Shown here one piece after another: positions 17,488 to 57,125 of a DNA stretch of 64,000 nt (the stretch's first letter is position 1; every line of letters begins with the position of its first letter). A program made the translations under genes and the position numbers. This DNA comes from Mesostigma viride (lineage: Eukaryota; Streptophyta; Mesostigmatophyceae; Mesostigmatales; Mesostigmataceae): positions 1,589,920-1,653,919 of the forward strand of contig RPFO01000648.1 of assembly GCA_009746045.1 (NCBI GenBank), given 5' to 3'. The notes below the pieces were generated by a model. That model had not been told where the DNA came from. It saw nothing but the letters and a program-made list of their open reading frames with translations, and ran no database searches.

Positions 17488-17506
17488 TGTGTTTATATAT
17501 ATATAA

Positions 17507-17585
17507 CCCCTATTGAGTGATAGGGGCTTGTGGGGTACCGGGGAGCTATTATTGAGTGATGATGATTGAGTGATAATTGAGTGAT
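17507..17585. repeat. PLV left terminus: small palindrome and four ATTGAGTGAT repeats
   Basis: CCCCTAT-tgagtg-ATAGGGG forms a 7-bp stem at the very end (17507-17526). ATTGAGTGAT occurs four times between 17512 and 17585, and the mirror set lies at 57040-57120. Such subterminal repeats could bind the recombinase or a replication initiator; this is inference. Confidence 0.8.
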
Positions 17586-17870
17586 GAAATATTGGAGTTT
17601 TTTGACTTTTTTACTGACACCCGTCACGGGCTTACTGGCCCTTCTCAACCCCCGCCAACCTTGGCTCAAGGATCGCCGGGCTTTAGAGGTGCTTTATAAT
17701 GCTGGCATCCGTCACCACCAGCCGTGGGTCTGCCGCCTACCGATCCCCTCCTACTCCCGAGCCTGGGGGTGCGATGGTTCGTGACGGGCGTGAAAAGTGT
17801 GACTTCCGTTTTGCTCAACCATGACCGACCGCGGACAGCGGGGTGGGTGAAAACTGTGGGAGAGGGTGTA

Positions 17871-17921
17871 GCGTTCTGCTCAACTTTTATAACAAAAGCA
17901 TTCAAAAGTTGAGCAGAACGC
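17871..17921. repeat. Long perfect hairpin in left TIR, copy 1
   Basis: GCGTTCTGCTCAACTTTT and its exact reverse complement flank a 15-nt loop, giving an 18-bp perfect stem. Identical hairpins lie at 18060-18110, 56516-56566 and 56705-56755. Confidence 0.93.
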
Positions 17922-18059
17922 GGGACCTCGAAAAGTCAAGCTCACCGCCCAGCGCGCACCCGGGTCGATGGGCGGCGTGAAAAAATGTGACTTCCGTTTT
18001 GCTCAACCATGACCGACCGCGGACAGCGGGGGTGTGTGAGAACAGCGGGAGAAGGTTCA

Positions 18060-18110
18060 GCGTTCTGCTCAACTTTTATAACAAAAGCATTCAAAAGTTG
18101 AGCAGAACGC
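18060..18110. repeat. Long perfect hairpin in left TIR, copy 2
   Basis: Same 18-bp stem and loop as at 17871, within the second 188-bp unit. Confidence 0.93.
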
Positions 18111-18390
18111 GGGACCTCGAAAAGTCAAGCTCACCGCCCAGCGCGCACCCGGGTCGCTGGAAAACCCAGCCCTGGTCGGGAAATTCGCGGAACTTTCGTG
18201 CAGGGGTCTGCGTCCTCGCGGTACTCGGGAAGGGCGGGAGAGGGGGTGGCGGGGTTTAGGGTCTTTTTTTTCAAAAAGGATGCGCCACTTTCAAAAAATG
18301 TCTAAGCGTATTTGTGGGTGTTAACCGGCAAGGGATTTCTATTTGGAGCCCTGGTCAGGCATAGTCATCGCTGCCGTTTTTGCCCCTGAT

Positions 18391-21300
18391 TTAACGAAAC
18401 GCAAACTGATAGTCACTAGGCATCTTGAACTCCCTTACTTTCCTGATATCTTCCGCTATCTCTGCCTGCTTCCCCCACCATTCTGGCTTATACTTCTCAA
18501 AGAATTCGATCATGCACTCTTTAGAGACGTAGGCGTCGCTTGCCTTCTCGTGCTCCTCGCGCCAAGTTCTCGTATTAATGCCCAACGTGGACGCGAGGAT
18601 GGACTCGAGGACCCCCACACACTGCTCGAAACTTAGACACCCAGGTCCGTTCTTGCTCCTCCTTTGATACCCAAACACCGACCGGAACTTCCCCTGGTAA
18701 GTGTACATCCAATCCCGGTCGAGTTTGTTCACCGCCTCAGTCAGCCTCTCGCGGCTGATAGCCGTCGACGATGCACTCTTGCCGTCTAAGCAGAACTCCA
18801 TGATCCCACTGCCAGCCAGCAGTTTTCTGGCCATCGTGAGGCGGTAGGCGTGATCGATCTTCTTGTTCTTGACGAGCCCGAAGACGTTCTCACTCTTCCT
18901 CGCGCGGTCGTCGACGATGCCCTCGCCAATCGCCGCCTCCCATCCGAGCTCTGTCACGCGAGAGTACTGCTCCCTGGCATGGTACGTCTCGCGAGCCTTT
19001 TCATCGGCCAGCTCCTTGATGAGGCCCTCGTCTATGAGGTCCTCTGATATCTTGTACCGGTCATGACACAGTTCGTACATCTCGACGAGCTTGCACTCGG
19101 CGTCTGTCAATATCGCGTCACGGTCACCTGCCCTCGCCGTGAGTTCGCGGTACTCCTCGGCGCTGATCATCCGCGGCTCAAACTCTCCCTTCTCTATTTT
19201 CTTCAGCTTTGGTGCCTCTTCCGACCTGCCCGCCTGGACTTCTCCTGCTATCTTGTAACCATACCGCTCCCTCAGCGTCCTTATCATAAGTTCGTCGTAA
19301 TGGCTCCTTGACGCCCCTAATGCTTCTAGGTTGCGGCACAGTAAATTGTACGCTGGGGATGTGTCGCCAAAAAGGCGCTCCCCGTCCTCGCCCCATGAAC
19401 TAATGACGCTAGATTTCAACCCTTTCATCATCATGAACATCTCGTCGACTTGTTGGCGAGTGTGGCTCTTGATCAGCTTGAAATCCGCAAGCGGTCTGGT
19501 TGCGGGCGTGGTCGAGTCGAGGTAGAAAACGTGCACGTCGCCCTCTCGCAGCTGCCTTACGCGGTGCATTTGTTGGAGTGTAGTGGTGTATGGGGCGTGC
19601 TTGTCACTGTTCCGAGCCATGACGATCATCGAGTCGAACGTGGGAAGGGTGTACGAAACGCCAACGGATATGGTCGGACTGTACTCGAGGTATTGGACAT
19701 CTTTCCACGCCTCGTTCGCTCCCAGGTCGAGGTCGCCCTTCGGCGTCTTGCTGGTGTATCGGCGCGTGTTGACACCGTTGAGAGAGTCTCCGAGCTGTTC
19801 GCGGACCCTGTCGAGCGTGCCGCCTGCCTCAGAACTGACCAGCACGAACGTCTTGCCAGCGTCCAGAAACTTCTTTGCCTGCTTCGACGCCTGGTATATC
19901 CACTCCTTCTCGCACCCCCTCCCTGGCTTGATGCGTGTAAAATGTAACACCCTGTTAGTAGGTCTAACGTACTCGTTGTTGATGACGCGAAAGTCCGTGG
20001 CTGGTCTGTGGGACCTGATGAAGTTAACAGCCCCTGCCGTGATGTTGGCATCCGATGCTATCAATACTTTGGCGTTCGTGATGATGTCCATGAGTGCCTT
20101 GAAAACGTTCTCTCGGTCCCTCATGACGGCATTAGACAAGGCGTTAAAAATGCTGTCGACCTCGTCCAAGATAACGACGTCGAATCTGCGGTCCTGTAGG
20201 CGCAGGATGCTGTTGAGGACTACCAGCACGCGTGGGTGGGTGATCCAATAGTCATTGGCGCCTTCCTCCTTGCGAGAGTTCTTGAGATAGTTGAGGAAGT
20301 ATCTGTAATCAGCCAGCAGTTCAGCACGCGTTCTCGTTTTGCCGCCGTTCAGGGCTGGATCAATGACATCTTTGTTGAGGTTGTACTCTTCCTGCCTGGA
20401 TAGGGAGATGTTGGCGAACATCAGCAACACTCGCGCATCTTTGTAGAGATTGAGGACCGCCGCGATCATGGCGCGGTTTGCCTCTGATTTCCCAGTGCCC
20501 ATGCTCGACTGGGTGATGTACGTGAGCTTCTCGGTGCTGCCTGGATGGAGGGAGTGCACGATCGGCGCCAGGTCGAAGTGGCGCACCTTCCCCTCGCTGT
20601 ACACCTCGGTGAACTCGACCTTGTCGGAGATGTACTCGAACCGGTCGGCGATCTTGATGTGCGTCTTGCACGGTTTGGGCTTCTCGGCCCAACAGGTGTA
20701 CGCCACCTCACCGTCGCTATACTCCTCGACCCTTGGCCCGTGACCTGGACTGTTGTGGCTCTCCTTGCATATCAGACACTTGGTGCCTGGGTCCAATGTA
20801 AAGCGAGAGACTTTGACGGCGCCCCCGCGCATAACAGAAAACTGTTCCTGTGTATTCATGTACCTGGACCCTGGCGACACCTTCGCGATGGCCTCGACTG
20901 ATCTGGCGACTTTCGAAGCGTCCACAAACGTCCCAGAAACGGTTTTCCACATAGAGATGGACGCACTGGGAGCCCTCCTTCCAGCGTTTCCGGATTTCTT
21001 CATGTAGTGCTCCTTCCACCCCTCGGGCATCTCGACGGTCTGGACGCCTGTCTGGTCGGTTGTGGGGTAAATGTTGACTAGATGGTCCTTGATGTCGTCC
21101 GACCCGCTGATGATGCGCAATACCGCGTTGGGGTCGTGCTGGCCAAACTTGTGGTGGCCCACCATCCGAAAACATCTGTTTTTCGTGTAAATCGACTCAT
21201 CGATAACCAGCTTGATGTTTCCATCCGTCGCGCAGTCCTTGGGGATGTCCGCAAACGTCTCCCATTTTTTCTGGATGTACGGCCAACCCTTCTCTCGGTT

Positions 21301-21863
21301 GATGAGGAGCGCCGCGTCTTTGTGAAATGTCGAGTCGGGGTCGAGGAAGTGGCTGCGGACATAATAGCCAAATTCGTTGATGATGTAGTGTCTCGCGGCC
21401 AGGTCGGTGGTTTTTAGGTATTTGACCACTATGTGAAATGACACCTTCATGCCGTCTCCTTTCTCTCTCGGTGAGCCTGAGATGAGATACTTGAAGCCGT
21501 CTGGGTTTTTTCCAGCACATCGAAGCAGAAGGCCTCAAAAATGCGTATGAAGTGGTGGAGCACGTCTGGGATGTCCTCTCCTTTTGGGTAGATGTCATCG
21601 AGGTCGAAGTGCATCCAGGAGGGGTGATCCTCCTTGACCATCTCGTAAAGGCAGTGCATGTCGATGTGTGGATGGTCGATACACTCCTTGTGAATTTCCA
21701 TAAGGTGTTCGACATCCCTGACGCTCGTGTACTTTTTGGCTGTTTTCTCGTCCTTGTCGAGGGCTGCCAAGAAAGGATGGCCTAGTTTCTCTCCATTGTC
21801 GATTGCCATCTGTTGGGCTGGGAGCCAGCGCGGGTTGTACTTCAGGTAAACTTTGGTCGTCAT
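18391..21863 (-). CDS. Primase (AEP type) fused to SF2 helicase of origin-binding type; one-base frameshift
   Basis: This is the probable replication protein of the PLV. The start chosen is the ATG at 21863 (MTTKVYLKYNP), with a GTATAC element 12-17 bases upstream. The N-terminal primase has the metal-binding HFDLDD, a second motif VSFHIVV and the third motif IDESIYTKNRCFRM. A Cys/His cluster (CLICKESH ... CWAEKPKPCKTH) follows. The helicase has Walker A SSMGTGKS, Walker B VILDEVDS, ASDAN, TISVGVSYTLP and the arginine motif QQMHRVRQ, resembling herpesvirus-type origin-binding helicases. A one-base loss in an A run (21508-21513, T6 on the plus strand) splits primase from helicase into 21447-21983 and 18391-21450 frames. 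The remaining sequence is well preserved. A C-terminal region of about 300 residues is unassigned. Confidence 0.85.
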
Positions 21864-22056: not shown

Positions 22057-23334
22057 TCAATCATTCCTCATTCTTTCGTATTGGATCTGGACGTTGACCG
22101 AGTGCGCCATCATTTTCGCAAACCGCTTCCTCGCCGCCATGCCTGCAATGACAAATTGGGTCACGAAAGCCTGGCGAGCGTTGTCGACGCCGTGGAAATG
22201 TTTGCGGAGGATCGCGCCGAATGTTTCGACTGACATTGGGGCTTTTTTGCCTCGAGAAGGCATGAACAAGTAAGGCCTGTCTTTCCGCATGTCGAGCGCT
22301 TCTCGCAACGTTTTCAGATTCTTGGGGACTACAAAATCTATCGCCCCGAGGACCGGCGCGGTCTTGTGGGCGTTGATGATGAACCTGTACTCTTTTGGGA
22401 TGTAGCCGTTCTCGGTCTTTCCCAATTCTTTCGCCGATTTCACAATCCGGGCGTCGTGGTAGTCGAGCCTGACAGGTGGCAGTTCTTCGCCGGAAAAGTA
22501 GAGGAGGCCGATGAGCGCCTTGTCGCTCTCCAAGCCCTCTTTGACGGCCTTATCTCGCAACTCGACGAGCTCGGGCCATGGGTGGGCTGGTGGCTTGTTT
22601 TCGCTCACGAATTCCGCGTTGGCCTCGAGACCTTCCTGGGACGTCGCCATGTCCTCCACGTAGGCCTCGCGCACGTCTTGCGGGATCCTTTTGCCGGCAT
22701 CCATCTGGTTATCGATCGAGTTGATCGATGAGAAAAGGTCCTTGGCGTTCGTCTTCTTGGTGATGGCGCGGTCCTTCTTGCCGCCCCTCTCGGAAGGCTC
22801 AGACAGGGCGTCTACGGCCTCGCGCACTTTCTTGGTGTCGAGGAGGGGCGTCACAGGTTTGGCACCGTCTTTGTCTGGTTCGTATCCTAGATGCCTGAGG
22901 ATCTTTGTCAACCGCGCGAGGTATGTCTTCCCAGAACCCCTCGAAATCTGCCCCTTGGCCCTCTGCGCCCTCTTCCTTCCCGCCCCCTCAGCGGGGCTTA
23001 GCGTCTCCGGCAAATTCGCGACCATGTTCTTGGCGTCGTCCAAGGACCAAAGGGCGGGGTGTGCCAATGTCTTCTTAGGCGGCGCGGGCTTTGAAGGTGC
23101 TTCCTGGGGTTTGCACTCCTTTTCTGGGAGGCCGACGACTGCTCGCACCTCGTTGACCTCTTCGCAATCTGTCCCGTGTTTCTCCAACCACTTCTCGGTG
23201 GGTGTCCACTGGTCCTTCTTGGCCATCGCTCTCATTCGCTGTAGGGCGGCCTTCTCTGGGTGTTTGAGCCGATAGCGGGCCTGCGCTTCCCGGCGTTGGC
23301 GGAGTTCTTCCTCGGACCTGACGACTTTGACCAT
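22057..23334 (-). CDS. Tyrosine recombinase / integrase of the PLV (425 residues)
   Basis: Probably integrates the virus by cutting and rejoining DNA through a tyrosine. The N-terminal 130 residues are basic and helical (DNA binding). The core-binding region lies at about 130-250. The catalytic half has the first arginine in ELPPVRLDYHD, a candidate lysine in NAHKTAPVLG, the second arginine in NARQAFVT, a histidine in MMAHS, and the nucleophile in IQYERM near the C-terminus. The His of the usual HxxR motif is replaced (DNAR). It lies between the primase-helicase and AT-hook genes on the same strand. A TATA-like sequence (GTATAAG) lies 11-17 bases upstream. Its TATA-rich insertion site and near-random 6-bp duplication fit no strict attachment sequence that I can define. 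Confidence 0.8.
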   Translation of the reverse strand: MVKVVRSEEELRQRREAQARYRLKHPEKAALQRMRAMAKKDQWTPTEKWLEKHGTDCEEVNEVRAVVGLPEKECKPQEAPSKPAPPKKTLAHPALWSLDDAKNMVANLPETLSPAEGAGRKRAQRAKGQISRGSGKTYLARLTKILRHLGYEPDKDGAKPVTPLLDTKKVREAVDALSEPSERGGKKDRAITKKTNAKDLFSSINSIDNQMDAGKRIPQDVREAYVEDMATSQEGLEANAEFVSENKPPAHPWPELVELRDKAVKEGLESDKALIGLLYFSGEELPPVRLDYHDARIVKSAKELGKTENGYIPKEYRFIINAHKTAPVLGAIDFVVPKNLKTLREALDMRKDRPYLFMPSRGKKAPMSVETFGAILRKHFHGVDNARQAFVTQFVIAGMAARKRFAKMMAHSVNVQIQYERMRND

Positions 23335-23784
23335 GGCGGGTACTTATACCTATACATTAGAAAAAAATTTGGGATTTTTGAACGCACTGTTGATTTTTGT
23401 TTCGATTCTTGGGCATCGAGCTAATATTTTTAGGGTATGAAAACTTGCAGCCAAGGGTTGATGAATTTCGAGCCAACTTTTTTAAAATTTCACAAGTCCC
23501 AAAACACTGGCACCCCTTGACAAGAAGTTTTCAAGGCCCGGGAACTTTCTCTCGATGCCTGCCAAAAAAATCGGAATGGTCGAAAATGTCGGAAATCATT
23601 CCGCGCGCTTCGCGCAGACCTCTGTCACCGGCCGCCGCCCCCTTCCCACACCCTCTCGCGCCAAGTGGCGTAACTTTCTCGTTTGTAGTCCGTTTTCGAC
23701 GTTCTTGGTGTCCCCGGAAAGCTCTACTCAAGGCGCACACAATGGTGCAAATAGATATCAAATCGAATAAAGAAAACGTGAGTT

Positions 23785-24314
23785 TTAGGTTCTTTTGTCA
23801 TCGCCACCCGACTTCCCTTTCTTAGGCCTCCCCCAAGGCTTGGGAAGACCTGTTTCGGGGTCGATATTATGAGTCCTCGGCTTTGTGTCCTTCGACCCCG
23901 CGGGCCTACCACGCTTCTTGGGGCTCCGAGGGATGACTTCCTTTTTGATTTTCGGGGGGCGAGGGGCCTTTGGCGGAGGGGGGGGTTGCGGGGTTTGCGT
24001 TTCATGGCGATGATGTGCATCAACTTTTGGCGGCACTCGTGGCCTATCCCGGTATGCGTGGGGGGCAGCTCGCCGTCGTACCCGCACTCTCGCACAAACG
24101 CCGCCATCCTCTCGTGGACCTTTGGTGCTATTCTGGCGCCGGTCAGGTAGCGCACGAGTGTGGCCAGGTTGAGCACCAGATCTCGGCGGTCGGAACTGCC
24201 ACGGTAGGAGTTGTTATTCACCTTGAGCCCCGCGCAATTGTGAGTGGCTGGGTCTGGGAGGCTATATTGTGGGGAGGGCGTCGTGGGCTGAGAAAATGCC
24301 TGCTTCAAGTCCAT
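23785..24314 (-). CDS. Basic AT-hook protein, frameshifted in a C run
   Basis: The ATG at 24314 (MDLKQAFSQP) is preceded by an ACTATACA element. Residues 30-100 look folded (LVLNLATLVRYLTGARIAPKVHERM). The tail is very basic and contains AT-hook cores, KKRGRPAGSK and WGRPKKGKSG, expected to bind the minor groove of AT-rich DNA. The tail lies in another frame than the head. The switch occurs at a C8 run near 23977-23985, where one more C would restore a continuous Pro-rich linker. It may condense or organise viral DNA; the function is inferred only from the hooks. Confidence 0.65.
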
Positions 24315-24342: not shown

Positions 24343-25227
24343 TTATTTTTTCAGGACCAAGTAGGTATCAAAGTTTTTCCTATAGCGTTTCGAGTCGTCT
24401 GGTTCGTCGTTGTCGACCGCGAGGAAGTCGTGTGGGCTGTTTTGGGTGGCGTACTCCCACAGTGCCAGGAAGTCCTCTGGTGACGTGTGACCCGCCGATT
24501 CTTCTGCGATCTGTCGCGAGGCCCGCCGGTCCTTGGTGCGGAAGAGCACGAGGAACGAGACGTTGGCGCGGACGGACCTCGGAACTCCCGCGCTCGTGAA
24601 TGACTGGTTGACGAAGACCATGGACGTTAACAGGTGCCGGTGTTTGAATGCAAAGGACGACACGGGACCTTTCGAGTCCGCCCGGTAGAGCTTTGACCCC
24701 GCCATGTCGTCGATGAGGATGATCGAGGAGGGAGGCCCGTACTGGAACCGCGTCTCGGGCTCTTTGAACTGAAGCCTGTCGAGGGTCAAAAACATGTTGA
24801 GGTCCATGTCTTCTTCGGTCTTCTGGCCGTCTAAGAACTCCTTCTTGAACTTTTCCCACACCTTCAAGTCCCGCTGGTACTCCTCGTATTCCGTGAGGTC
24901 TTTCTTGATGTCCGCCACCATCTGGTTGAAGCTGTCGTCCGTGTACGTCTCCATACTCATGGCGGGCGTCGGAAGGAGCTTGTACTTCGGCTCGGTCGTG
25001 GCGGACCCCGAGATCAGGTACAGTTTGTCGAAAGAGTGCGCGTCGAAGTACGCCTTGACCATGTTGATGGCCGCCGTCGTCTTCCCGGTCCCTCGCATGC
25101 CCACAAAAGAGGCGATAAAGTGCAGCCTTGGCGCGTTGGATGGGACCTGGCGGGTCTTGGCGTATTTCAGCTTGAGGTCCTTGTTGGCGAGCGGCGTCTC
25201 GATGTGGATGCTCTCGATTTCTGGCAT
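24343..25227 (-). CDS. DNA-packaging ATPase, FtsK/HerA family (A32-like)
   Basis: Drives viral DNA into the capsid. Over 294 residues it has Walker A VGMRGTGKTT (about residue 43), Walker B SIILIDDMAGS (about 170), and a sensor-like stretch SMVFVNQSFTSAGVPRSVRANV typical of A32-like ATPases of PLVs, virophages and giant viruses. Length is normal for the family and the frame is intact. It is followed on the same strand by the AT-hook gene after 28 bases and preceded by the coiled-coil gene after 20 bases. Confidence 0.93.
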   Translation of the reverse strand: MPEIESIHIETPLANKDLKLKYAKTRQVPSNAPRLHFIASFVGMRGTGKTTAAINMVKAYFDAHSFDKLYLISGSATTEPKYKLLPTPAMSMETYTDDSFNQMVADIKKDLTEYEEYQRDLKVWEKFKKEFLDGQKTEEDMDLNMFLTLDRLQFKEPETRFQYGPPSSIILIDDMAGSKLYRADSKGPVSSFAFKHRHLLTSMVFVNQSFTSAGVPRSVRANVSFLVLFRTKDRRASRQIAEESAGHTSPEDFLALWEYATQNSPHDFLAVDNDEPDDSKRYRKNFDTYLVLKK

Positions 25228-25247: not shown

Positions 25248-25805
25248 TTAGTCGTCGTTGAGCGAGGCCAGCAGGGATGCCCGGATAGCCAGCATCCTTT
25301 GCTCGTAAGGCGTGAGAGTCGGCGCGGTCTTCACGGCAGGCGGAGGGGCTTTCGGTTTGGCGGCCTGTTCGCGCTCCTCCTGCTCGACCTCGTACTTTGG
25401 CTTCTTCCCGCGGCGGGGTCGAGGGGTGTCCGTCGGAGTCTCGGCGACCTCCTCGGCGGCCAACAGTCGTTCTATCCGGAACTTGTTTCGCTTCTCCTCC
25501 AGCTCGAGCTCGACCAGTCTCTGCCGCTGGAGTTCGAGTTCCTTCTCAAGGACCTTGCGCTTGGTGATCTCGGCCTCGCGCTCCTCCTGGCGCTTCTTGG
25601 CGCGCTCCTCGTTCCTCTTCTGGTGGTACGGCCGCATCTTGTCCCTGAGGGCCTGCTTCTGCTCCTCGGAGAGTTGTGCGCCCTTCTTGTACTTCACGGC
25701 CTTGCTAACCTCCTCGGTCTTTACGGGCTCCTGGGGTGCTGTCGATTCCACGTCGGCGGCGGCGGGGCTCGTTGGCGAATCTGGGGCGTCTGGGACTGGG
25801 TTCAT
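25248..25805 (-). CDS. Coiled-coil protein of unknown function (186 residues)
   Basis: The ATG at 25805 (MNPVPDAPDSPTSP) lies next to the divergent promoter, and longer upstream Met codons would overlap the opposite gene. Residues about 45-125 are almost all charged and Gln/Leu-rich (RKVLEKELELQRQRLVELEL), predicting a long coiled coil. A Lys/Pro-rich segment follows, then a conserved-looking tail YEQRMLAIRASLLASLNDD. It may be structural or a scaffold; no family is recognised. Confidence 0.75.
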   Translation of the reverse strand: MNPVPDAPDSPTSPAAADVESTAPQEPVKTEEVSKAVKYKKGAQLSEEQKQALRDKMRPYHQKRNEERAKKRQEEREAEITKRKVLEKELELQRQRLVELELEEKRNKFRIERLLAAEEVAETPTDTPRPRRGKKPKYEVEQEEREQAAKPKAPPPAVKTAPTLTPYEQRMLAIRASLLASLNDD

Positions 25806-25844
25806 TGGCGCTATAGTTAATGTCTTAGATAATATTAGAACAAC
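25806..25844. promoter_or_regulatory. Divergent promoter region of the PLV
   Basis: Only 39 bases separate the start codons of the leftward coiled-coil gene (25805) and the rightward fibre gene (25845). CTATAG (palindromic, 25811-25816) sits 6-11 bases from the leftward ATG, and an AT-rich 'gataatatt' lies before the rightward ATG. Confidence 0.6.
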
Positions 25845-26630
25845 ATGGTCGTGGTTAGCGGGAATCCTGCCAATTATAACCTGAGCACAGGGCTCGGAGA
25901 GGACACGGTGGACGAGCGAATTGCGGACCTCGAGAGCGATCTCCAGTCCCTTCAGCTGCAGGTCCATCCCTTCGACTCGCACATCACCGTTAACGGGGTC
26001 CGCTACGTATACCCGAGCGCCCCGACGCGAGTGAGACTGGGCGACAACTACAGCGAATGGACGGCCGTCACGACAGGCGAGACAAGCGGGATGTTAGAGG
26101 TCGACGGGGGCATCGTCGCAGATTGGATTCGGATTTCCTCTTTGCGACTGCTCGACCAATACGCGACAATTTCCGAGATCGTCGCAGACCGAATATTGAC
26201 GCGCGATCAGATCGACTGGCTATTTGATAGGCACAGTGTTGGATACACCACATTGCCCAGCCCTAGCGCCATGTTCACGATCCAATACGAGAACGGCACC
26301 TTGTCTGCCCCTGGAACTACGTTCACGATCACAAACAATCAGGATATCCGCATACTTCTTCCCTACACGGTCACGGGAGGAGACAGCGACGGGAAATGCA
26401 CGTACCAAGTCCAGGTTCTTGGGGCTTTGGATCCGATCAACGCAAGCCAGACTGTAGACGGTCCTCACATGGACGAAATCCATTTTGGAAGCACCGGTCA
26501 TGCGTATTTTGGAAAACTGATGAGTTTCTCTCAGGTCGGGTTTGCGACGACTAGGGACCTGAATAGGATGCAGAGACTCTCTAACGGCCTCCACATCACG
26601 CGCACATACGCCCCTCTAACGGCCTGGGAC

Positions 26631-26635
26631 ATAGG
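26631..26635. repeat. Left target-site duplication of gypsy-2 (ATAGG)
   Basis: ATAGG precedes the 5' LTR here and follows the 3' LTR at 39360-39364. It belongs to the fibre gene. Confidence 0.93.
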
Positions 26636-27209
26636 TGTTACGTCGCGTAACAATTCGTTGTAGTTACGGACGTAAATTAGGTCCTTTGCCTCGGTTGTCC
26701 CTAGGTTTACGTTTAGGCTCCTACCGGGACATTATTGTCCTCGTAACAGTACCGTGGTACATTGGGTGCCGTTGGGCGCCGCGCCGCGTACTTTACTAGT
26801 GGTCCTGATCCTGTGGTAGAATGTAGTGGACCAGCGTGCATCAGTAGATTTAGTGGACCAGCGTGCACCTGTAGGCGAGGGCCATGTCGGCCCGAGCGTG
26901 TTGGACCGTTGGTGACCATTTATGCGCGTTCTACCCCTTTGTGTGTGCACTCGGCGTGTGTTAAGTGAATTGACACATTTAGGCTTGGGTCACGGCAGTG
27001 TAGTTGTGTTTCCTTCCTCTATTCCTGGAGTAAACGGGTTTTAATAAATGGTTGTATGGCGTATTATAGCAACACTTACGTTAATGCATTGAGATCAGCT
27101 CCGTCACGTTCGTCTTTCGCCAGAGGGTTAAGTAGAGGAGGCCTGACCAGTTTAGGTAGTATCAGGCCCATTAGAGGTAGAGGTGGAGGTAGATATCCGC
27201 GGCGTAACA
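26636..27209 (+). repeat. 5' LTR of gypsy-2 (574 bp)
   Basis: TGTTACGTCGCG ... CGCGGCGTAACA. It has AATAAA at 27042-27047 and differs from the 3' LTR at one base that I noticed (g at 27187, a at 39337 by alignment). TGG begins one base downstream (27211) as expected for a tRNA primer site, followed by a self-complementary ttccggaggaa. Confidence 0.93.
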
Positions 27210-27415
27210 ATGGTTCCGGAGGAACTTCAGTAGGTAGTGAACGAGACGACTATCCCTTGCCACATACACCTTTTCAAGACCCCTTCCGCGTCCAGGAACA
27301 AGAAGTCGACACTTCCTTGATAGGTAATGGGCGGGTCGCCTTCAAGCTAGGAGCGTCGTGCTGCCCGTTTCGGGACACGCTTTACCTAGAAGCTAGACCT
27401 GCTCACAGCGGATAA
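27056..27415 (+). CDS. Arg/Gly-rich short protein starting inside the LTR of gypsy-2
   Basis: The frame (119 residues, MAYYSNTYVNALRSAPSRSS) begins in the LTR, crosses the LTR end and primer site, and continues into the leader. It has an RGG-like basic segment (LSRGGLTSLGSIRPIRGRGG). The gypsy-1 counterpart is at 60455-60757. In the 3' LTR the same frame runs into flanking DNA. Conservation could simply reflect LTR identity, so it may be leader RNA rather than a gene. Confidence 0.4.
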   Translation: MAYYSNTYVNALRSAPSRSSFARGLSRGGLTSLGSIRPIRGRGGGRYPRRNNGSGGTSVGSERDDYPLPHTPFQDPFRVQEQEVDTSLIGNGRVAFKLGASCCPFRDTLYLEARPAHSG

Positions 27416-27742
27416 ATCCTTTCGTAGTTAGCCTGTCCTTCGCCTTGTTTTCCTGCTTACGGTTGTTTCCTGCCTTAGATCGGGGAGTATTACTGTTCGG
27501 AGACGATTAGCGTCGCCGTACCTACACCTTTTTCCTTGTGCTGCTGCTTTATTAGACGGCCGCACCCGCAGAGTTACGGGGCGCTGTGTTAGGACGAGCG
27601 CTGGGATATCCGGCCGCTGACTTAGGACGAGAGCTGGAAACTCCCGCCCTCCTTCTTCTTTCGGTGATCCAGATCGTCAAGCTAAGTCGCCTACCCCTAC
27701 CTCGTCTAGCTTGACATCACAAGACACGCCAGGTGAGTTATC
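27416..27742 (+). other. Gypsy-2 leader region
   Basis: Untranslated leader between the LTR-borne frame and ORF2; probably packaging signal territory. Nothing else is seen. Confidence 0.5.
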
Positions 27743-28135
27743 ATGAGTCAACGTCGTGTTTTTACTGCGCCTTCCCATTCATCTAGTGATAATAGTTTAG
27801 CTAAGTATTACGTAGTTATTACCCCTCAATGGTCAGCCATTTTCCTCTCTTGGTCAGATGCTAGGAAGATAGTGCAAAACCGTACATATAATGTAATTAG
27901 GTATAAGAAATTTGTTACCTTCGAGGAAGCTCAACAATTCCTTATAGACCATAGCGTATCAGATCTAGGCCTACACGTACGTTCTACTCCTCATGGTCGC
28001 CCTCCTGTAGAAGCTCTAGATTTTGCTACCCCTCCTTCGTCTCCCCCTAAGAGGGCTGCATCCTCATCTAGCTTAGATACTCCTCTCACCTTGGAATTCG
28101 GTTCCCTATCCATTACTGTTGTTAAAAAGGACTGA
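27743..28135 (+). CDS. ORF2 of gypsy-2: RNase H1 N-terminal / viroplasmin-like hybrid-binding domain
   Basis: In this 130-residue protein, residues about 22-72 (YYVVITPQWSAIFLSWSDAR ... YKKFVTFEEAQQFLIDH) show the YYVV-x-G/x-P-x-I-x-x-x-W ... KKF-x-T-x-x-E-A-x-x-F pattern of the hybrid-binding domain found at the N-terminus of RNase H1 and in caulimovirus viroplasmin. The domain binds RNA/DNA hybrids or RNA. The C-terminal half is Ser/Pro-rich. It stands as its own ORF before gag, and the gypsy-1 copy (59711-60103) differs by a single residue that I noticed, so it is conserved. It may coat reverse-transcription intermediates; that role is inferred. Confidence 0.75.
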   Translation: MSQRRVFTAPSHSSSDNSLAKYYVVITPQWSAIFLSWSDARKIVQNRTYNVIRYKKFVTFEEAQQFLIDHSVSDLGLHVRSTPHGRPPVEALDFATPPSSPPKRAASSSSLDTPLTLEFGSLSITVVKKD

Positions 28136-28259
28136 TTTAAATTGTTCCTTTCTTTTAAGCCATTAAAATCTTTTCCTTTTCTTTCCTTGCCTTATATTAG
28201 GCCTTGTCCTTTATCCTTGTTGCTTTCAGTTAGATTTTTGATCATTTACTTAAACAAAA

Positions 28260-28311
28260 ATGGATCCAGTGGGTGGTAACCTGTCGCCTATACCTACCAA
28301 TACTCCTACTA

Positions 28312-28348
<37 letters not shown>

Positions 28349-34131: not shown

Positions 34132-34207
34132 TCGTAGGCCTTCTCCTCTCTTATGTTATGTCTGCTGTCGACGGGTGGTTGGTTGTCCCCTCCCCTCCGC
34201 AGCCGTC

Positions 34208-42348: not shown

Positions 42349-42638
42349 TGTACCACCCCGCTTTCACGGACGGTCACAACTGCTGGAGGAATCAAGGAGC
42401 AGCCGACAACTGGTGGTCGGTTTGTGGGATCAATATCGACAAGACGAACGGGAAGATCGGGCTATATCAAAACCGGAAGATCGCCACTGAGTATACACTC
42501 GACGCGACGTGGGCAAGTAAGACGATCTTCTGGATAGCGTTTAGGAGACGGTCCGATGGTTTAATTGATCGATACATCTCCTATTCCGCTCCCACTGGTC
42601 TGAGCAGTATGACTAAGCTAGCGAATTCCGTGACAGGC

Positions 42639-42643
42639 ATTTT
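42639..42643. repeat. Left target-site duplication of the copia element (ATTTT)
   Basis: ATTTT recurs at 48798-48802. The fibre frame is continuous when one copy and the element are removed. Confidence 0.9.
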
Positions 42644-48802: not shown

Positions 48803-50065
48803 CACAGCCTCTCCGACCGGGATCATAGCTCCGTATGCGCCTGGTCAGGTGAGGTTAGTTTTTCATCTGGACAGCGCCCACCAGACGATTATCAACGCGT
48901 GCGAAATAATCAACAATACGAACAATGTCGAGTTCATCTCGCTTACGACCACGAACTCAACAGGCCTTTACTCAACATCTGGAAACACTCTGCGGCTCAC
49001 TCACCGCGGCACACAATCGCTAATTTGTTCGATCATGGGCCGTAACTACTTCTCCTCTCCTGTTCCAGGGGTGGCGAATCTTTATTACATAGAACTCCTG
49101 ACAACGAAAGATAACCTCATCCACGCCGTCGCAAAGTTGCCGCCATACGATTATGGGAATACGCCCATGACGTACCCAGTTGCTGTCTACGGGGTACTAC
49201 CAGACCTCCCACACATAAAAAAATTCACAGTTGATTTGTACTATAACTCCACGTCTCTAAGTAATATTAACCCCGTAAGCACCATTATAAAGGGCGCAGA
49301 TTGGGAGGGAGGCACGCTTTCCGCGGCAAATTGGATAAGTGGATCGACTAGATGGATCGTTGTATCCATCGAATTACCGACGCCATTCTCTCCTTCTCTA
49401 GGAGGTCTAACGCACTTGTTCACTGTGACGTTCACGCCAACGGCTTCTTTTAATCCACATTCCACCCTCATCATTACGTCCTCATCGACGGCAAAGTTTT
49501 ATGGGGACGGGGGTTTTCAAGTAGGCACGACATCATACCTCAATGAGGCTGTCTACACAGACGAGCGCGAGGCCCATAGAATCCCATTCTCGATAACCGG
49601 GATGCGAACGGTGGCCTATGACTACATGCAGCCAGAGCTCTGGGAACTCGGACCAAAGGGAACTCTGAGCTTTCGAGATCAAAACGGGGCTGTCATATCG
49701 CCCCCGACCACACTTAGCGCGTTCTATCTCCGTGTCCATTTCACGCAAGGTGCGCCCGCCCTTCTGGACATCGGCCACCCCTACAGACTTCTGCCAGATG
49801 CCGTGAATTTCATTTATGGGCCTGGCACAACCGGCAGGCTCCTTGTCGGTCCATCTTGGCGAGTCGCGCCTGGTTATGACGAGGCTGACGGGGTGTATGA
49901 GATACTCTTGAGGGTGGATAAGCCGCTGGGTTCTGGTAGTGCTGTGGTGTATCTCGACCCGCCCCTCAAATGCAGGTCCAAGTCAGGATTGCCGGCAAGT
50001 GGGGAGATATTTGGCCCAATCACGTGGACTGTTTAAAATCTTAGTACAGTGTTATAAAGCACATG

Positions 50066-50615: not shown

Positions 50616-50927
50616 ATGAATATGGACAACCTCTTTTCCGACGCCGAGATGCTGCAGATCGCCCAGTGGATGACACTCTACCCCGACACCCCTCGCGAGT
50701 TCATCGAGGCAGCCATGCTGTACTGTAGGAGCAAGCCGCTCACCGGGAAGGAGAGGAGGGTCCTAAAGAGGAAATCGCGTGGGCTTGCGGGAGAGAGTGG
50801 CAAGGTCGTGATCCACGGCAAGAACGAAATAACTTCTGAAGTCATTGTAGAGAATGAAGGAGTACGTTCAGGAGTGCAGGACGTTGACGCTGAGGACCGA
50901 GAACAGGACCAGGGGCGGTCTACATGA
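50616..50927 (+). CDS. Small PLV protein overlapping the minor capsid gene
   Basis: The ATG at 50616 or 50622 (MDNLFSDAEMLQIAQWMTLY) has CTATAT 12-17 bases upstream. The first 45 residues look helical, then it is Lys/Arg-rich (RRVLKRKSRG). It overlaps the minor capsid start by 74 bases in another frame, so its last 25 residues (DVDAEDREQDQGRST) may be fortuitous. The family is unknown. Confidence 0.5.
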   Translation: MNMDNLFSDAEMLQIAQWMTLYPDTPREFIEAAMLYCRSKPLTGKERRVLKRKSRGLAGESGKVVIHGKNEITSEVIVENEGVRSGVQDVDAEDREQDQGRST

Positions 50928-51711
50928 TCCAATTTGGGACATCCCTGCTGGCCTGCTAGAGGATTACCACGACGTGGGGCTGACCTTGCTGACGATTCCC
51001 TACGAGCAGACACACATCAACAGCAATAACAACACCTTTGAGGTCACGATGGCGACGGCGCACACGGTCTCACTGCCGGTCGGGTCGTGGACCACCATCG
51101 AGAACCGCCAGAACATCGAGACGACTTTATTGACAATCGACAGCAGCTTCACAGTCACCTATGATCGGGCCAATAGTCGGTACACGTTCGTTGCAGAGAG
51201 TCCGTTCCAGTTCCTGGTTGGCGAGTCGGTCGGGCGGGTCCTCGGGCTAACACCCGGCATTCATCAGTCGAATGACCAGTTCGTCGTTTACAGCAACCGA
51301 CCAGCCACGAACGGGCGGCTGCGGGCCGTGTATGTTTACTCGGACATCGTGCGCGGGAATGTGGTTTCGGCGACCCACGGGACGGTCTACGGCGGTCTGT
51401 TGGCGTGTTGTCCGAACCTGTCCAAATTTCTCGAGCCCATCATATGGCAGGCGCAGAGTCCACTGTGGCAGCACGTACGAGACTCACCTAGGTCGATCAG
51501 CCTGCGCCTGTTAGACGAGGACGACGCACCGATCCAGCTGTACAGCGACTGGGTGGTTCAGCTGACTTTCCGGATATCCCCGCAAAAGGCCATGGGGGTC
51601 GAGGCGCGGAAGATCGGGGGTATTCTCAAGTACATGGCGCTCGACAAGGACGTTCTGCCTGCGAGAAGATTATCTAACCAGGTAGGTATAAACGAAGAGG
51701 ATGAAGCTTGA
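50854..51711 (+). CDS. Minor capsid (penton-like) protein
   Basis: This 285-residue beta-rich protein lies directly upstream of the major capsid gene, as in PLVs and virophages. The C-terminal strand pattern SISLRLLDEDDAPIQLYSDWVVQLTFRI matches the single jelly-roll minor capsid proteins that occupy fivefold vertices. The frame is intact. The next gene starts within its last 11 bases (ATG at 51701), a compact viral arrangement. Confidence 0.78.
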   Translation: MKEYVQECRTLTLRTENRTRGGLHDPIWDIPAGLLEDYHDVGLTLLTIPYEQTHINSNNNTFEVTMATAHTVSLPVGSWTTIENRQNIETTLLTIDSSFTVTYDRANSRYTFVAESPFQFLVGESVGRVLGLTPGIHQSNDQFVVYSNRPATNGRLRAVYVYSDIVRGNVVSATHGTVYGGLLACCPNLSKFLEPIIWQAQSPLWQHVRDSPRSISLRLLDEDDAPIQLYSDWVVQLTFRISPQKAMGVEARKIGGILKYMALDKDVLPARRLSNQVGINEEDEA

Positions 51712-51985: not shown

Positions 51986-52025
51986 CCGGATTTTTATCTA
52001 AGGTAGAAGGTATACAACACACACC

Positions 52026-53268
52026 ATGTCTTCTGACGGTTCTTGGTACAATCGCGCGATCCCGAAGTCCATGCAGTACCTCATTAAGACGCTCGGTCAG
52101 CACTCCACGTCCCGCGTACAGCTCTCCACGCTCTCCGCCAACTCCGGCATCAAGCAGGGGTCGGTGGTGGCGGTCCGGCTGCCTACCCATGGGTTTGCCG
52201 ACCTTCACTCGTTCGCCATGTTCTTTGAAGCGACACCGACTACGACGGCTGGTTTTTGCAAGTTTCCACCGTACACGTCTTCGCTCATCAGGCGGCTCGA
52301 GGTGCTGGTTGGTGGCCAGTCTGTGGACTCGATCAACGATTACGCCCAGCTCTTCAACACTTTGTTGACGGTCCATGGAGGACAGGGATTTATCAACTCT
52401 CAGGGGCCTGCCGGTTGGTCTCTCAACGACGCGGCTAACGTAACCCTTACAGCGAACACAGCACAAAAGGTATTATTGACAACTGGCTCGGGTTCTTGTC
52501 CGGCGACCCTCGAATCATCGACCTCAGTCTCTTTCCACCGATCGAGATCCGCATCACGCTCATGGACGGCGGGGTGATGATCCCAGGAGCTGCTGCTGGT
52601 GCTGGTTTGCGGCTGGGGCTGGTCTCGGGTTTGAGCTGAAGGACATCCATTTCTCGATCGACACGTACAGGTTCCAAGAGGATGTGGTCTCTCAGATCTT
52701 CGCGTCTCGGCTGGCTGAGGGTGGCACCTTGCCGTTCAGGTGGAAGACCTGGCAATCGACCAAACAGACGATTCCCGGCGACACCTACAGCATCAAGGCT
52801 ACCCTCTCGTCAGCATCCGCGTCAAAGTTGTTGGCCGTCCAGGTAGCAGCCGCAGCTGATGTGGCAAACGCGCGATACAACACCATGTTCGCGCACACCG
52901 CCGACGGCCTCACCGGATTCCAGTTCGACATCAACGGCAGCAATCAGACACCAGCGTACAGGATGGGCATCACAGAGGCATGGGTGAACCTGGTTAGCGC
53001 CTTCAATGACCAGGGGAACAGTCTGTCGTGCGCAAGGGCAGACATCAATCCCGAGACATGGGCTGGTAGCGATTTCGTCATGGCTTGTCACCTCAACATG
53101 CCATGTGCTGGCGCCGAGTACCAGAGCGGTCTCGATCTACGGGGCACTGCATCGGTAGTGACTCTGCGCGTCGACAGCGCGGGTGCGGGTCATGTCTCGT
53201 ACATCTTCGTAGAGATGGAGGCGAAGATGGACGTCGGCGCAGGGCGGCAGGCGGCCGTGTACCTGTAA
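52026..53268 (+). CDS. Major capsid protein (double jelly-roll), with two one-base deletions
   Basis: The start MSSDGSWYNRAIPKSMQYL has GTATAC 11-16 bases upstream. N-terminal features (VVAVRLPTHGFADLHSFAMFF, SSLIRRLEVLVGGQSVDSIN) and the C-terminal half (VSQIFASRLAEGG ... FVEMEAKMDVG) fit PLV/virophage double jelly-roll capsid proteins, total about 415 residues. Two frame changes, in the runs ggttc near 52490 and ggtttg near 52630, each need one extra base to restore the frame, with a well-preserved strand-rich segment between them. Nothing else is degraded, so these may be sequence errors. Confidence 0.83.
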
Positions 53269-53298
53269 AAATGTCTGATGGTTAGTGTATAGCATTCG

Positions 53299-53424: not shown

Positions 53425-53488
53425 TGGAACCCAAGTTCCAGTATCCTCTGCCAAAAAAATAGTGTCATTGTGGTAGTATACTAGCTCC

Positions 53489-55182
53489 ATGTCGTTTGAG
53501 TATGGTGTTTGTCCTGCTTTGATGCGGAAGAAGCGTAAACCGGTAAGAATAGCGCCGTCAATCACATTAACAACTACAGGAGGATCATATCCCAGCGCCT
53601 CCCCGATTGCAGTAACAGCAACATTCAGCCAACCAGTCACCGGTTTCGCCTTGGGTGATATCGCTGTCATAAATGGTACTGCATCCGGTTTAACGGGTAG
53701 CGACACCTCCTACACGTTCACGGTGACTCCGGCAGTCGCTTATTCACTGACAACCGTCAGCGTTGGAGCAAATGCAGCAATCAACACGCTAGGAATCGGC
53801 AACACGGCCTCCTCCACCCTCTCCTTCACGTACTCGCCCCCTCCGACGGTGACTCTCGCGACGACCGCGGGCTCGACGCCATCATCGACTCCAGTGGAAG
53901 TGACCGCCACATTCAGCAGGTCCGTCACGGGGTTCGCGTTGGGCGACATCACCGTGACCAACGGGACCGCCGCCAACCTGACCGGCAGCGGGGCGTCGTA
54001 CGCCTTCCAGGTGACGCCAACGACCGCCAATTCTTCAACGAACGTCAGCGTGGGCGCGGGCGCTGTTGTGACGCATCGACAGGGAACGCCAACGCGGCAT
54101 CTAACACACTGTCGTTCACGTACTCGGCAAATCCGTCGGTGACTCTTGTGTCCGGAACCCCGACGGGTGCCGTTTACCCAGTCACGGCCACTTTTAGCAC
54201 GTCGGTCACCGGGTTCGCGTTAGGCGACATCAGCGTAACCAACGGAACCGCGTCCAACTTGGTGCGGGTAAACGCGGCATTTTATTTGTTCGACGTGACC
54301 CCTACCATGTCGGACTTTGTGACGACGGTAAGCGTGGGCGCGGGCACCGTGACGAGCGCAACGTCAGGGCTTGGAAACACAGCATCCAACACACTGTCAT
54401 TCACGTACAATTACAACCCGGCAACGGACCCCGCACTGTTTGCGTGGTACGATCCGTCCGACAGCGCCACGATGTTCAGCGACACGTCCGGCACGACCCA
54501 GCAAAACACGGCTGGCGGGAACGTAATGCGCGTGAACGACAAGGGGCCGAACGGGTACCACGTGACGCAGGCAAATTCCGCCAAGTGTCCGACACTGGAT
54601 ACGGCGGAGCTGAACTCGAAACGGTCCCTCCGTTTTATTAACTCGCGGTCTGGCTTGTTGGAGTCCGTGAACAATTTCTGGAACGCGGTCGGGGTAAGTG
54701 CGAGTGTTTTTATAGTCGCCAAACAGCTAACGACTGCAACGTATCCACTATTAGGGGGTGCTACGGGTATCCGAGGATATATGCTTGGATCGTCGAACGG
54801 CAATTGTTATCTCATGTCTTATCAGTCAGAGAGCCAGGTCGTTCTCTTCTTCACTCCCAATAGTGTACGCGAAACCGTGAGCACCAGGGCTCAGTTCTTT
54901 GACAACAAGGCACACGTCCTGGCGCTTTCATGCAACAGCAGTACAAACGCATTTCTCACCCGCTTCGACGGACGACCCGGTTATGACAGAGTGGGATCGG
55001 ACCCTACAACTGGTTCGGGAAATCTCGCTATTGGAGGAGACACGTCCAACGCGAGTTGTGCTTTTGATGGGTGGATTGGCGAGATCCTTATCTACAACAC
55101 CGCCAAAACGTCAGCGGAGCTTGAGCTGATACGCGGCTACCTCGCAGCCAAGTGGGGAACTCCCGCCGCCATACCAGCGTAG
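53489..55182 (+). CDS. PLV adhesin: three bacterial-type Ig-like repeats and a LamG/concanavalin-like domain; one frameshift
   Basis: After MSFEYGVCPALMRKKRKPVR come three repeats of about 90 residues with the core VTATFS-x2-VTGFALGDI-x-V-x-NGTAS (about 53560-54400). They resemble Ig-like modules of bacterial surface proteins. The C-terminal 250 residues (FAWYDPSDSATMFSDTSGT ... DGWIGEILIYNTAKTSAELE ... YLAAKWG) have the LamG-like lectin fold signature. One base is missing near 54072 between repeats 2 and 3. TAGTATAC lies 8-15 bases before the ATG. It is likely a receptor-binding decoration; the domains may have come from bacteria. Confidence 0.8.
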
Positions 55183-55228
55183 AGTTAAGACTAGAACTAT
55201 TATCTCTTATAAGTTGTAATAAAGTATC

Positions 55229-55723
55229 ATGGATTATCCCACTTTTTACCAAATCGCTTTAGATTCTGTCGCGTCACAGAACACAATCGACGAATACAAT
55301 GGAATCTATTCTTTCGATATCAAGCCAGACCCAAGAGCGCCTATCATAGACAGCACATGGCGCGGAGGGGTCCATTTCGCATATCTCAAGGACGTGGAAA
55401 ACCAAGAAAATTACTCGCTTGTCGGACTAGTTTCTTCAAGTTTTTCTGGAGGAGAGCATAACCCACAAGACAGTGTCGTGCTATGTACCGAAGAATGCAA
55501 AGATGTTGCCGCCTCGTACACCGTGATAAACGACCATGCATTTTTCAACCTAAAAAACGATCACTTGTTTAGGAATGGCGGGAAACTCGAGATCGGTTTA
55601 GTGCACATTGACAGAGGAGTTGATGACAAACAATTCATCCCACTAACCCACGAGTCGTTTCTTTGCATCTTGCGTTTTGAGAAAATTCGCGGGTTCGACA
55701 AGTGCAAGTGCCATCACAAGTAG
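55229..55723 (+). CDS. PLV protein of unknown function (164 residues)
   Basis: The start MDYPTFYQIALDSVASQNTI has TTATAA about 16 bases upstream. It is a balanced, globular-looking sequence with beta-rich centre and a Cys/Lys tail (GFDKCKCHHK). The intact frame and its own promoter-like element support a real gene. No family is recognised. Confidence 0.65.
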   Translation: MDYPTFYQIALDSVASQNTIDEYNGIYSFDIKPDPRAPIIDSTWRGGVHFAYLKDVENQENYSLVGLVSSSFSGGEHNPQDSVVLCTEECKDVAASYTVINDHAFFNLKNDHLFRNGGKLEIGLVHIDRGVDDKQFIPLTHESFLCILRFEKIRGFDKCKCHHK

Positions 55724-55757
55724 GTTAAAAAAGCTCATCATAGGTTGAAACACTTCT

Positions 55758-55949: not shown

Positions 55950-55990
55950 TCAATAAAATTCTCTTTGCATGAATCTATACAGCTCCCAAC

Positions 55991-56371
55991 ATGTTCGTGA
56001 CCATGAACGACATTCTGAACTGCATCGAGGCCTGCAAGCCGGGTAGTGGCGGGTACATCCAGGACGGCACTGAACGGGCCCGCAACGCCGCAGAGGTGGC
56101 GCGCATATCCTGCATCATCGCCCGAAAGCCTGACCCGTACGATGACAACTACCGTTTAGAGTTAGAACAGCTCGACAATCCTTTGACCCTCCTAGCCGCC
56201 GCCTCACGCGCACTAGGTAGCGAGGCGACCCCGGACGACGTTCACAAGGTGTGCGAGGACCTCGCGGTTCTCTCCATCATGGCCGGTTGCGTCACGGGCA
56301 GGCAGTCCATCTCTTCGCCGACATTCGCGAAGGTGAAGGAGCAACTGCAACTCTGGAGAGACATTCGCTAA
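55991..56371 (+). CDS. PLV protein of unknown function at the right TIR (126 residues)
   Basis: MFVTMNDILNCIEACKPGSG is preceded by CTATAC 10-15 bases upstream. It is mostly helical (ARNAAEVARISCIIARKP, VCEDLAVLSIMAGCV). The TAA stop at 56369-56371 lies at the inner edge of the TIR, so the TIR ends where coding begins. Family unknown. Confidence 0.65.
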   Translation: MFVTMNDILNCIEACKPGSGGYIQDGTERARNAAEVARISCIIARKPDPYDDNYRLELEQLDNPLTLLAAASRALGSEATPDDVHKVCEDLAVLSIMAGCVTGRQSISSPTFAKVKEQLQLWRDIR

Positions 56372-56515
56372 CCCCGCCACCCCCTCTCCCGCCCTTCCCG
56401 AGTACCGCGAGGACGCAGACCCCTGCACGAAAGTTCCGCGAATTTCCCGACCAGGGCTGGGTTTTCCAGCGACCCGGGTGCGCGCTGGGCGGTGAGCTTG
56501 ACTTTTCGAGGTCCC

Positions 56516-56566
56516 GCGTTCTGCTCAACTTTTGAATGCTTTTGTTATAAAAGTTGAGCAGAACGC
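56516..56566. repeat. Long perfect hairpin in right TIR, copy 1
   Basis: 18-bp perfect stem and 15-nt loop, same as in the left TIR. Confidence 0.93.
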
Positions 56567-56704
56567 TGAACCTTCTCCCGCTGTTCTCACACACCCCCGC
56601 TGTCCGCGGTCGGTCATGGTTGAGCAAAACGGAAGTCACATTTTTTCACGCCGCCCATCGACCCGGGTGCGCGCTGGGCGGTGAGCTTGACTTTTCGAGG
56701 TCCC

Positions 56705-56755
56705 GCGTTCTGCTCAACTTTTGAATGCTTTTGTTATAAAAGTTGAGCAGAACGC
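56705..56755. repeat. Long perfect hairpin in right TIR, copy 2
   Basis: 18-bp perfect stem and 15-nt loop. Confidence 0.93.
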
Positions 56756-57125
56756 TACACCCTCTCCCACAGTTTTCACCCACCCCCGCTGTCCGCGGTC
56801 GGTCATGGTTGAGCAAAACGGAAGTCACACTTTTCACGCCCGTCACGAACCATCGCACCCCCAGGCTCGGGAGTAGGAGGGGATCGGTAGGCGGCAGACC
56901 CACGGCTGGTGGTGACGGATGCCAGCATTATAAAGCACCTCTAAAGCCCGGCGATCCTTGAGCCAAGGTTGGCGGGGGTTGAGAAGGGCCAGTAAGCCCG
57001 TGACGGGTGTCAGTAAAAAAGTCAAAAAACTCCAATATTTTATCACTCAATTATCACTCAATCATCATCACTCAATAATAGCTCCCCGGTACCCCACAAG
57101 CCCCTATCACTCAATAGGGGTTATA

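Follow-up and report, generated by a model that had tools for sequence, protein, structure and literature searches.

A probable integrated Polinton-like virus in the streptophyte alga Mesostigma viride and evidence for exchange of fiber alleles among its copies

Polinton-like viruses (PLVs) have invaded protist genomes on a large scale, and Streptophyta are among the hosts of the PgVV capsid group (Bellas 2023, PMC10120064). In cryptophytes, a Prim-S2H replicase occurs in 20 R. lacustris PLVs (cluster C2) and in one MELD virus, tyrosine recombinases are common as integrases and mostly come without a clean target site duplication (TSD), laminin (LamG) domains are found in the fibers, and retrotransposons are nested in the viral elements (PMC12220804). 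The integrated virophages of Cafeteria, the EMALEs, are interrupted by retrotransposons, and one EMALE sits within a retrotransposon while itself holding retrotransposons (Hackl 2021, PMC8547959). The genome paper of Mesostigma strain NIES-296 reports abundant long terminal repeat (LTR) elements, and in the available main text the word "viral" is absent and "virus" appears only twice, in the contamination filter (PMC6947507). Title and abstract searches of the open literature, with main texts, found no report of such viral elements in Mesostigma; supplementary lists may contain them. Here we analyze a 64,000-base stretch of the Mesostigma viride genome (the window, in contig C1879), in which positions 17500 to 57127 hold an element that we consider, with a probability of roughly 0.8, to be an integrated PLV, a proviral copy in this streptophyte alga whose variable genes are exchanged with those of related copies.

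The window PLV resembles the PgVV (Gezel-14T)/TsV/Tetraselmis viridis virus S1 group in its predicted double-jelly-roll (DJR) capsid protein, A32-type ATPase, terminal inverted repeats (TIRs) and protist host. With the cryptophyte clusters C1 and C2 it shares a fusion of primase and superfamily 2 (SF2) helicase, LamG domains and nested retrotransposons, the tyrosine recombinase being only putative in the window PLV. It differs from these clusters in that its helicase matches Herpes_ori_bp, its archaeo-eukaryotic primase (AEP) part matches a C962R-type model, and immunoglobulin (Ig)-like Big_12 repeats are fused to LamG. Its nesting recalls that of the Cafeteria EMALEs, a likeness of description and not of gene sequence, with Ngaro (DIRS) elements there and gypsy and other LTR elements here. 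A preliminary description of this locus had suggested that AEP-SF2 helicase, tyrosine recombinase and a separate Ig/LamG adhesin, with no polB, may define an undescribed lineage. The primase-SF2 helicase, tyrosine recombinase and LamG are, however, already precedented in PLVs, and the gene content of the element mostly has precedents. The part that may be new is the fiber exchange: fiber alleles appear to be swapped among otherwise near-identical Mesostigma PLVs, and we found no mention of this for cryptophyte PLVs in the available text (PMC12220804). The features that carry the argument are listed below (window positions; aa, amino acids; ORF, open reading frame).

17500–18254, plus strand: left TIR, from repeat comparison
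18391–21450, minus strand: replication protein, helicase part (UL9-like SF2), Herpes_ori_bp match of 2e-19
21450–21863, minus strand: N-terminal AEP part of the replication protein, lying in a different frame in the window, from sibling comparison
22057–23334, minus strand: probable tyrosine recombinase, 425 aa, from a motif only
24343–25227, minus strand: A32-like packaging ATPase, 294 aa, from Pfam
25845–26635, plus strand: fiber gene, piece 1 of 4, from the continuous ORF in siblings
39365–40279, plus strand: fiber gene, piece 2 of 4, from sibling comparison
42349–42643, plus strand: fiber gene, piece 3 of 4, from sibling comparison
48803–50036, plus strand: fiber gene, piece 4 of 4, from sibling comparison
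50854–51711, plus strand: 285-aa ORF, putative penton (minor capsid) protein, judged by size and location
52026–53268, plus strand: major capsid protein, broken into more than one frame in the window, 414 aa and continuous in siblings
53477–55182, plus strand: Ig-like (Big_12)/LamG gene, two frames in the window, 560–564 aa and continuous in siblings
55229–55723, plus strand: 164-aa ORF, conserved in siblings
56372–57127, minus strand: right TIR, from repeat comparison

TIRs stand at both ends of the element, as in PLVs generally. They are about 755 bp long, differ by one mismatch and one gap across 750 bp, and confirm the inverted repeats of about 756 bp described previously to within 2 bases at the boundaries. 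Without its insertions the element measures about 18.7 kb. Because at least 10 other two-ended copies carry the same repeats, chance pairing of the TIRs is excluded, and the thought that the two might derive from unrelated elements was rejected, as the same pair bounds each of those copies. Each window TIR also contains two tandem units of about 187–189 bp, at 17787–18160 and 56466–56840. Between the paired repeats lie a predicted capsid fold, an A32-type ATPase and an AEP-UL9-like replication protein, in agreement with the proposal of an integrated PLV.

The capsid frame is open (413–414 aa) in six of the eight copies read and broken in the window and in C1746; relative to each of four siblings, the window gene has 6–9 substitutions and 2–3 frame-breaking indels. 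The 414-aa protein of the sibling C2133 was modeled with AlphaFold2, giving a predicted local distance difference test score (pLDDT) of 59.4 and a predicted template modeling score (pTM) of 0.62. Foldseek matched this model to the PBCV-1, SGIV, Faustovirus, PM2 and PRD1 capsids in the PDB (best 1.2e-14), and the best 50 of 145 PDB matches (E ≤ 0.001) were all DJR capsid entries as judged by their titles. The BFVD matches listed for it included capsids of nucleocytoplasmic large DNA viruses, a MELD virus, mavirus and adintovirus, the best being an unnamed entry (6.9e-25). On this model, the capsid protein has the DJR fold expected of a PLV. Sequence profiles gave a weak signal (Capsid_N, E 0.035, in one of four relatives) and the sibling 414-aa protein itself matched none; the earlier placement of a capsid gene between the TIRs is thus upheld by the structure search on the sibling protein. 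The 285-aa ORF matched no profile either, and its minor-capsid label is a guess from its size and its position 5' of the capsid gene.

Downstream of the capsid gene, the Ig/LamG gene matched Big_12 and, slightly short of the cut-off, LamG. The same order of capsid and Ig/LamG genes recurs in a second subfamily, at two of three loci examined (L056 and L064; not L059) among ten such loci, and one Mesvir1 gene model (P0010) fuses the two. The separate Ig/LamG adhesin noted previously is present; a larger fiber gene, split by insertions and overlooked at that time, is there as well.

The A32-like ATPase, of the FtsK/HerA type carried by PLVs, was recovered by Pox_A32 at E ≤ 0.1 in all five family members searched (best 3.2e-10), as a profile check should find; the window ATPase alone scored 1.8e-4, below the curated cut-off. 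The replication protein is one 1,157-aa frame in C2133 and C335 (two of seven copies read) and two frames in the window. In C2133 (L037) this frame matches Herpes_ori_bp (1.3e-19) and, sub-threshold, AEP_C962R (8.2e-4; 20 bits vs a cut-off of 23), which puts the AEP and the SF2 helicase in one protein, as had been proposed. The frame break is common to the window, C1507, C1402 and C887, of which C1402 and C887 show 0 substitutions over 3,472 positions vs the intact C2133 and C335. In C1657, six short indels fall in a stretch of about 430 columns close to the 3' end, and this copy differs from each other copy by only 3–10 substitutions. Indels of this sort, unaccompanied by substitutions, resemble the product of assembly error or recurrent slippage, and they are no ground for classing the window copy as a pseudogene. 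No polB domain turned up among the PLV ORFs scanned, in keeping with the preliminary description, and rve occurred only in retrotransposon ORFs; the protein-primed polB and rve that mark Polintons/Mavericks proper were therefore not found in the element among these ORFs.

The genome searched for further copies comprises 440 Mb in 2,243 contigs. The TIR search gave 42 matches, with 40 of 147 candidates scored, and end pairs were assigned from facing orientation and distance. At least 11 two-ended copies, including that of the window, were recovered; at least five of them (C1507, C1657, C2022, C2133 and C2205) are 18,669–18,682 bp long and bear the same TIR, supplying the insertion-free copies of about 18.6 kb that had been predicted to exist. 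The other two-ended copies are about 18.5 (C1746, with one truncated TIR), 20.4, 20.8, 24.2 and 36.2 kb, and the search also returned several single ends and at least 11 TIR pieces of 523 bp with the same score. Within copies, TIR mismatches number 0 or 1 in eight of 11 (with up to three gap positions) and 4, 11 (the truncated case) and 23 in the others. A capsid search with P0008, in which the best 103 of 515 candidates were scored, yielded 102 places without an internal stop; some places are partial, some contigs may be duplicates, best-first scoring favors intact frames, and the broken window capsid is absent from the list. The many near-identical copies point to a large, recently spread family.

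Two observations concern the TIRs of this family. The replication halves of C2133 and C335 (L038) are nearly identical to that of the window and their TIRs about 4% different, with both TIRs of one copy matching each other as if one had been copied from the other. The 523-bp outer TIR piece is embedded in another repeated sequence at L039–L042 (C1468 twice, C47 and C1107), seemingly co-amplified with it; ORFs of about 247 and 185–254 aa flank it in the four places read, and a longer version is present in L043.

Of 27 full-length ends, 26 were read (C1 was left out; for two of the 26, the flank also occurs elsewhere), and 22 of these adjoin at least 6 nt of alternating TA, the other four, both ends of C1568 and of C2133, adjoining 4 nt. 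The whole window, by comparison, contains TATATA 14 times. Because C335 and C1568 sit at two points of the same host repeat, the flanks indicate that the TA tract is target DNA. A tyrosine recombinase acting on a TA core would fit such ends.

The evidence for exchange comes from comparing genes across these copies. Relative to the window, the ATPase shows 0 substitutions in all six copies with that part fetched and the recombinase 0 to 2, the capsid gene is 99.3–99.5% identical in seven copies, and the TIRs are 96.3–99.5% identical. Identity of the fiber pieces runs from 71.5 to 100% and varies along the gene within a single copy, and that of the Ig/LamG gene from 84.8 (over 59% of the gene) to 95.6%. 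The fiber gene encodes about 1,078 aa; it is one full open frame in C887, C335 and C1746, and one open frame over the part fetched in 10 of 13 copies read (C1402 with a different N terminus).

The contrast is sharpest between the capsid halves of C2022 and C2133. Their capsid and 164-aa genes are identical, with 0 synonymous substitutions per site (dS; 414 capsid codons), and their 285-aa genes have a dS of 0.005; over 870 codons their fibers have a dS of 1.36, a nonsynonymous value (dN) of 0.205 and a dN/dS of 0.15, at 71.0% aa identity. In windows of 250 alignment columns, identity is 55.6–87.1% within the fiber (columns 251 to 3000) and 98.8–100% from column 3001 to the end, including the right TIR. 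The dN/dS comparisons cover pairs with lengths within 10%, and the out-of-frame Ig/LamG gene of C2022 is not among them. Between C1746 and C2133, the Ig/LamG proteins are 65% identical (dS 0.70) and the 285-aa proteins 99.6% identical.

Distinct fiber types recur in several copies. One is common to C887, C2022 and C2205 at 100% (rounded), a second to C2133, C180 and C335, and a third is alike in C1746, C1402 and C1775, while C1507 and C1688, which have a common flank and were counted as one locus, combine stretches of the other types and diverge in the N-terminal part (in C1507 the last segment, of low identity, lies out of frame). The C1480 fiber was left out, and the long ORF of L046 is an N gap. 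The three types compared gave dN/dS values of 0.15, 0.20 and 0.27. Because C887 and C2133 have replication modules without a substitution between them and different fibers, fiber alleles appear to move between backbones. The high fiber dS would mean import from a diverged pool and not fast mutation, and the low dN/dS that the alleles have been kept working. Hypermutation of the fiber gene was rejected in view of the high synonymous divergence and of fiber types that reappear, 100% identical, in several copies.

Because a fiber would be of no evident use to a transposon, this pattern suggests an infectious stage, now or recently, in which the elements were traded as viruses besides being copied like transposable elements. 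In the mechanism that we propose, the element-coded tyrosine recombinase would insert the PLV at TA tracts, the ATPase would package DNA into capsids, and the fiber and Ig/LamG proteins would bind the algal surface. Fiber and Ig/LamG genes would be swapped as cassettes through homologous recombination in conserved flanks, between related PLVs in one cell, and selection on host recognition would keep several alleles circulating; the window copy would have been damaged later by the insertions in its fiber gene. We tentatively go further, to an idea that falls somewhat short of even odds: the Mesostigma genome may be a living archive of PLVs, near-clonal except for two host-recognition genes that are passed around as cassettes in the manner of phage tail fibers, so that the proviruses record an ongoing arms race.

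Several points weigh against an infectious PLV with exchanged fibers. Gene conversion among copies in the genome could exchange fibers with no need for infection. The fiber matches no profile, its name deriving from position, size and analogy, and its frame is broken in three of 13 copies read (C1507, C1657 and C1568). Confidence in the capsid model is only medium; a first model was poor (pLDDT 37.7) and too weak to rely on, and Tetraselmis viridis virus S1, the best BFVD match of that poor model, is not among the best 50 listed for the better one. A TSD is not resolvable within TA repeats. For the tyrosine recombinase named in the preliminary description, the 425-aa ORF shows an R..H..Y-like motif but matched no recombinase in searches of Pfam, PHROGs, NCBIfam and PDB sequences, so that the integration chemistry is conjectural. 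Several frames are broken in the window copy: the near-complete gene set claimed for it conceals interrupted capsid, replication and Ig/LamG frames. These breaks may in part be assembly errors, whereas the fiber insertions are structural damage to the copy.

The strongest competing explanation, which we nonetheless regard as unlikely, is a purely genomic transposon that spreads in the nucleus with passenger capsid genes and acquires its fiber mosaic by gene conversion among diverged copies, with no infectious phase. Many copies within one genome, nested insertions and the recombination of modules between copies all fit it, as do the replication modules of C2133, C335, C1402 and C887, which lie at unrelated sites with 0 substitutions. 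Internal stops, however, are lacking from 102 of the 103 capsid places scored (the best of 515 candidates, which favors intact frames) and the frame is open in six of the eight family copies read. A transposon needs no fiber, yet three fiber types are under purifying selection, and a fiber dS of 1.36 beside a capsid dS of 0 requires a distant donor pool.

A second alternative, which sees in the window element the decayed remains of a virus, turns on the age of the locus, for which the surrounding and inserted retroelements are informative.

10783–17499, minus strand: part of the gypsy (chromodomain) retrotransposon into which the PLV is inserted, LTR at 10783–11354, from Pfam, the LTR pair and alignment to the sister half
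57128–61175, minus strand: remaining part of the interrupted gypsy element, LTR at about 60604–61175, from Pfam, the LTR pair and alignment
26636–39359, plus strand: gypsy retrotransposon in the fiber gene, 5-bp TSD, from Pfam and repeats, with an empty site in siblings
37218–39110, strand not assigned: TTAA-flanked element of 1.9 kb whose ends form short inverted repeats, lying within the 3' LTR of the preceding gypsy
40280–42348, strand not assigned: short element between direct repeats of 646 bp, in the fiber gene, its site continuous in C1746
42644–48797, minus strand: LTR retroelement in the fiber gene, 5-bp TSD

On either side of the PLV, the sequence aligns to one of two adjoining halves of a single gypsy element; this outer element has a 5-bp TSD and identical LTRs (573/573), and a sister copy of it sits within the PLV. 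Because the flanks are two halves of one element, the order of events was outer gypsy, then PLV, then the insertions within the PLV, all of them young by LTR identity. There are three insertions, all of which split the fiber gene, with a fourth nested in the first, and sibling copies have uninterrupted sites at the insertion points. The distance between capsid and replication genes in the window is due to these later insertions; the preliminary description was correct in blaming three of them and had missed the nested fourth. Their repeats are identical or nearly so: 333/333 and 250/251 for the gypsy element at 26636–39359, 646/646 for the direct repeats and 344/345 for the LTR element. The TTAA-flanked element is presumably piggyBac-like, no TSD is visible at the 40280–42348 element, and the ORFs of the LTR element match no Pfam family.

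A fossil would account for the broken capsid, replication and Ig/LamG frames, for the 2–3 frame-breaking indels of the window capsid gene vs each of four siblings and for the splitting of the fiber gene. An ancient fossil was nevertheless rejected on the identity of the host gypsy LTRs (573/573), with which the single mismatch and gap between the TIRs agree, and the replication-frame indel and the six indels of C1657, with few or no substitutions, are typical of assembly error or recurrent slippage; we therefore hold decay to be quite improbable. Still less probable is an assembly artefact, in which chimeric contigs of repeat copies produced the fiber and Ig/LamG mosaic: the assembly is repeat-rich, two flanks recur (C2205 with C335:5956k; C1688 with C1507), so that some contigs are possible duplicates, and three of 13 fibers read out of frame, but three fiber types each occur in three copies with differing flanks, 10 of 13 fibers stay in a single open frame throughout the part fetched, the compared types are under purifying selection, and chimeras would not restrict strong divergence to the same two genes.

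Two further ORFs of the PLV and some features of its surroundings complete the description.

23724–24314, minus strand: 196-aa ORF, conserved in siblings
25248–25967, minus strand: 239-aa charged ORF

At positions 5716–7312 of the window, a 170-bp unit is repeated in tandem about 9.4 times, the copies being 99% alike in the manner of a satellite, and Rfam and tRNA scans of the window found nothing. Searches of IMG/VR with three proteins (ATPase, capsid and recombinase) found no relative, INPHARED searched with a capsid relative and the ATPase gave no useful match, PDB sequences gave only weak matches to unrelated proteins, and an NCBIfam search returned nothing informative. The expectation that automated annotation would report only transposons here proved not quite right, as the EukProt Mesvir1 set has gene models for several PLV genes: the 1,019-aa helicase ORF is 100% identical over its full length to Mesvir1/23753, which may be the same locus, and further element proteins have Mesvir1 relatives.

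The family described here adds a large, recently active group of PLVs to an alga on the branch leading to land plants, and the LTRs of the retrotransposons around and within the window copy place the spread of the PLV in time. It also offers a test of PLV lifestyle that can be read from sequence: selection on fiber genes is expected from an extracellular stage that binds cells and not from a purely genomic life. If the genome is indeed an archive of a circulating virus population, then this alga, a basal branch of the plant lineage, would have on record its ongoing arms race with an integrating virus.

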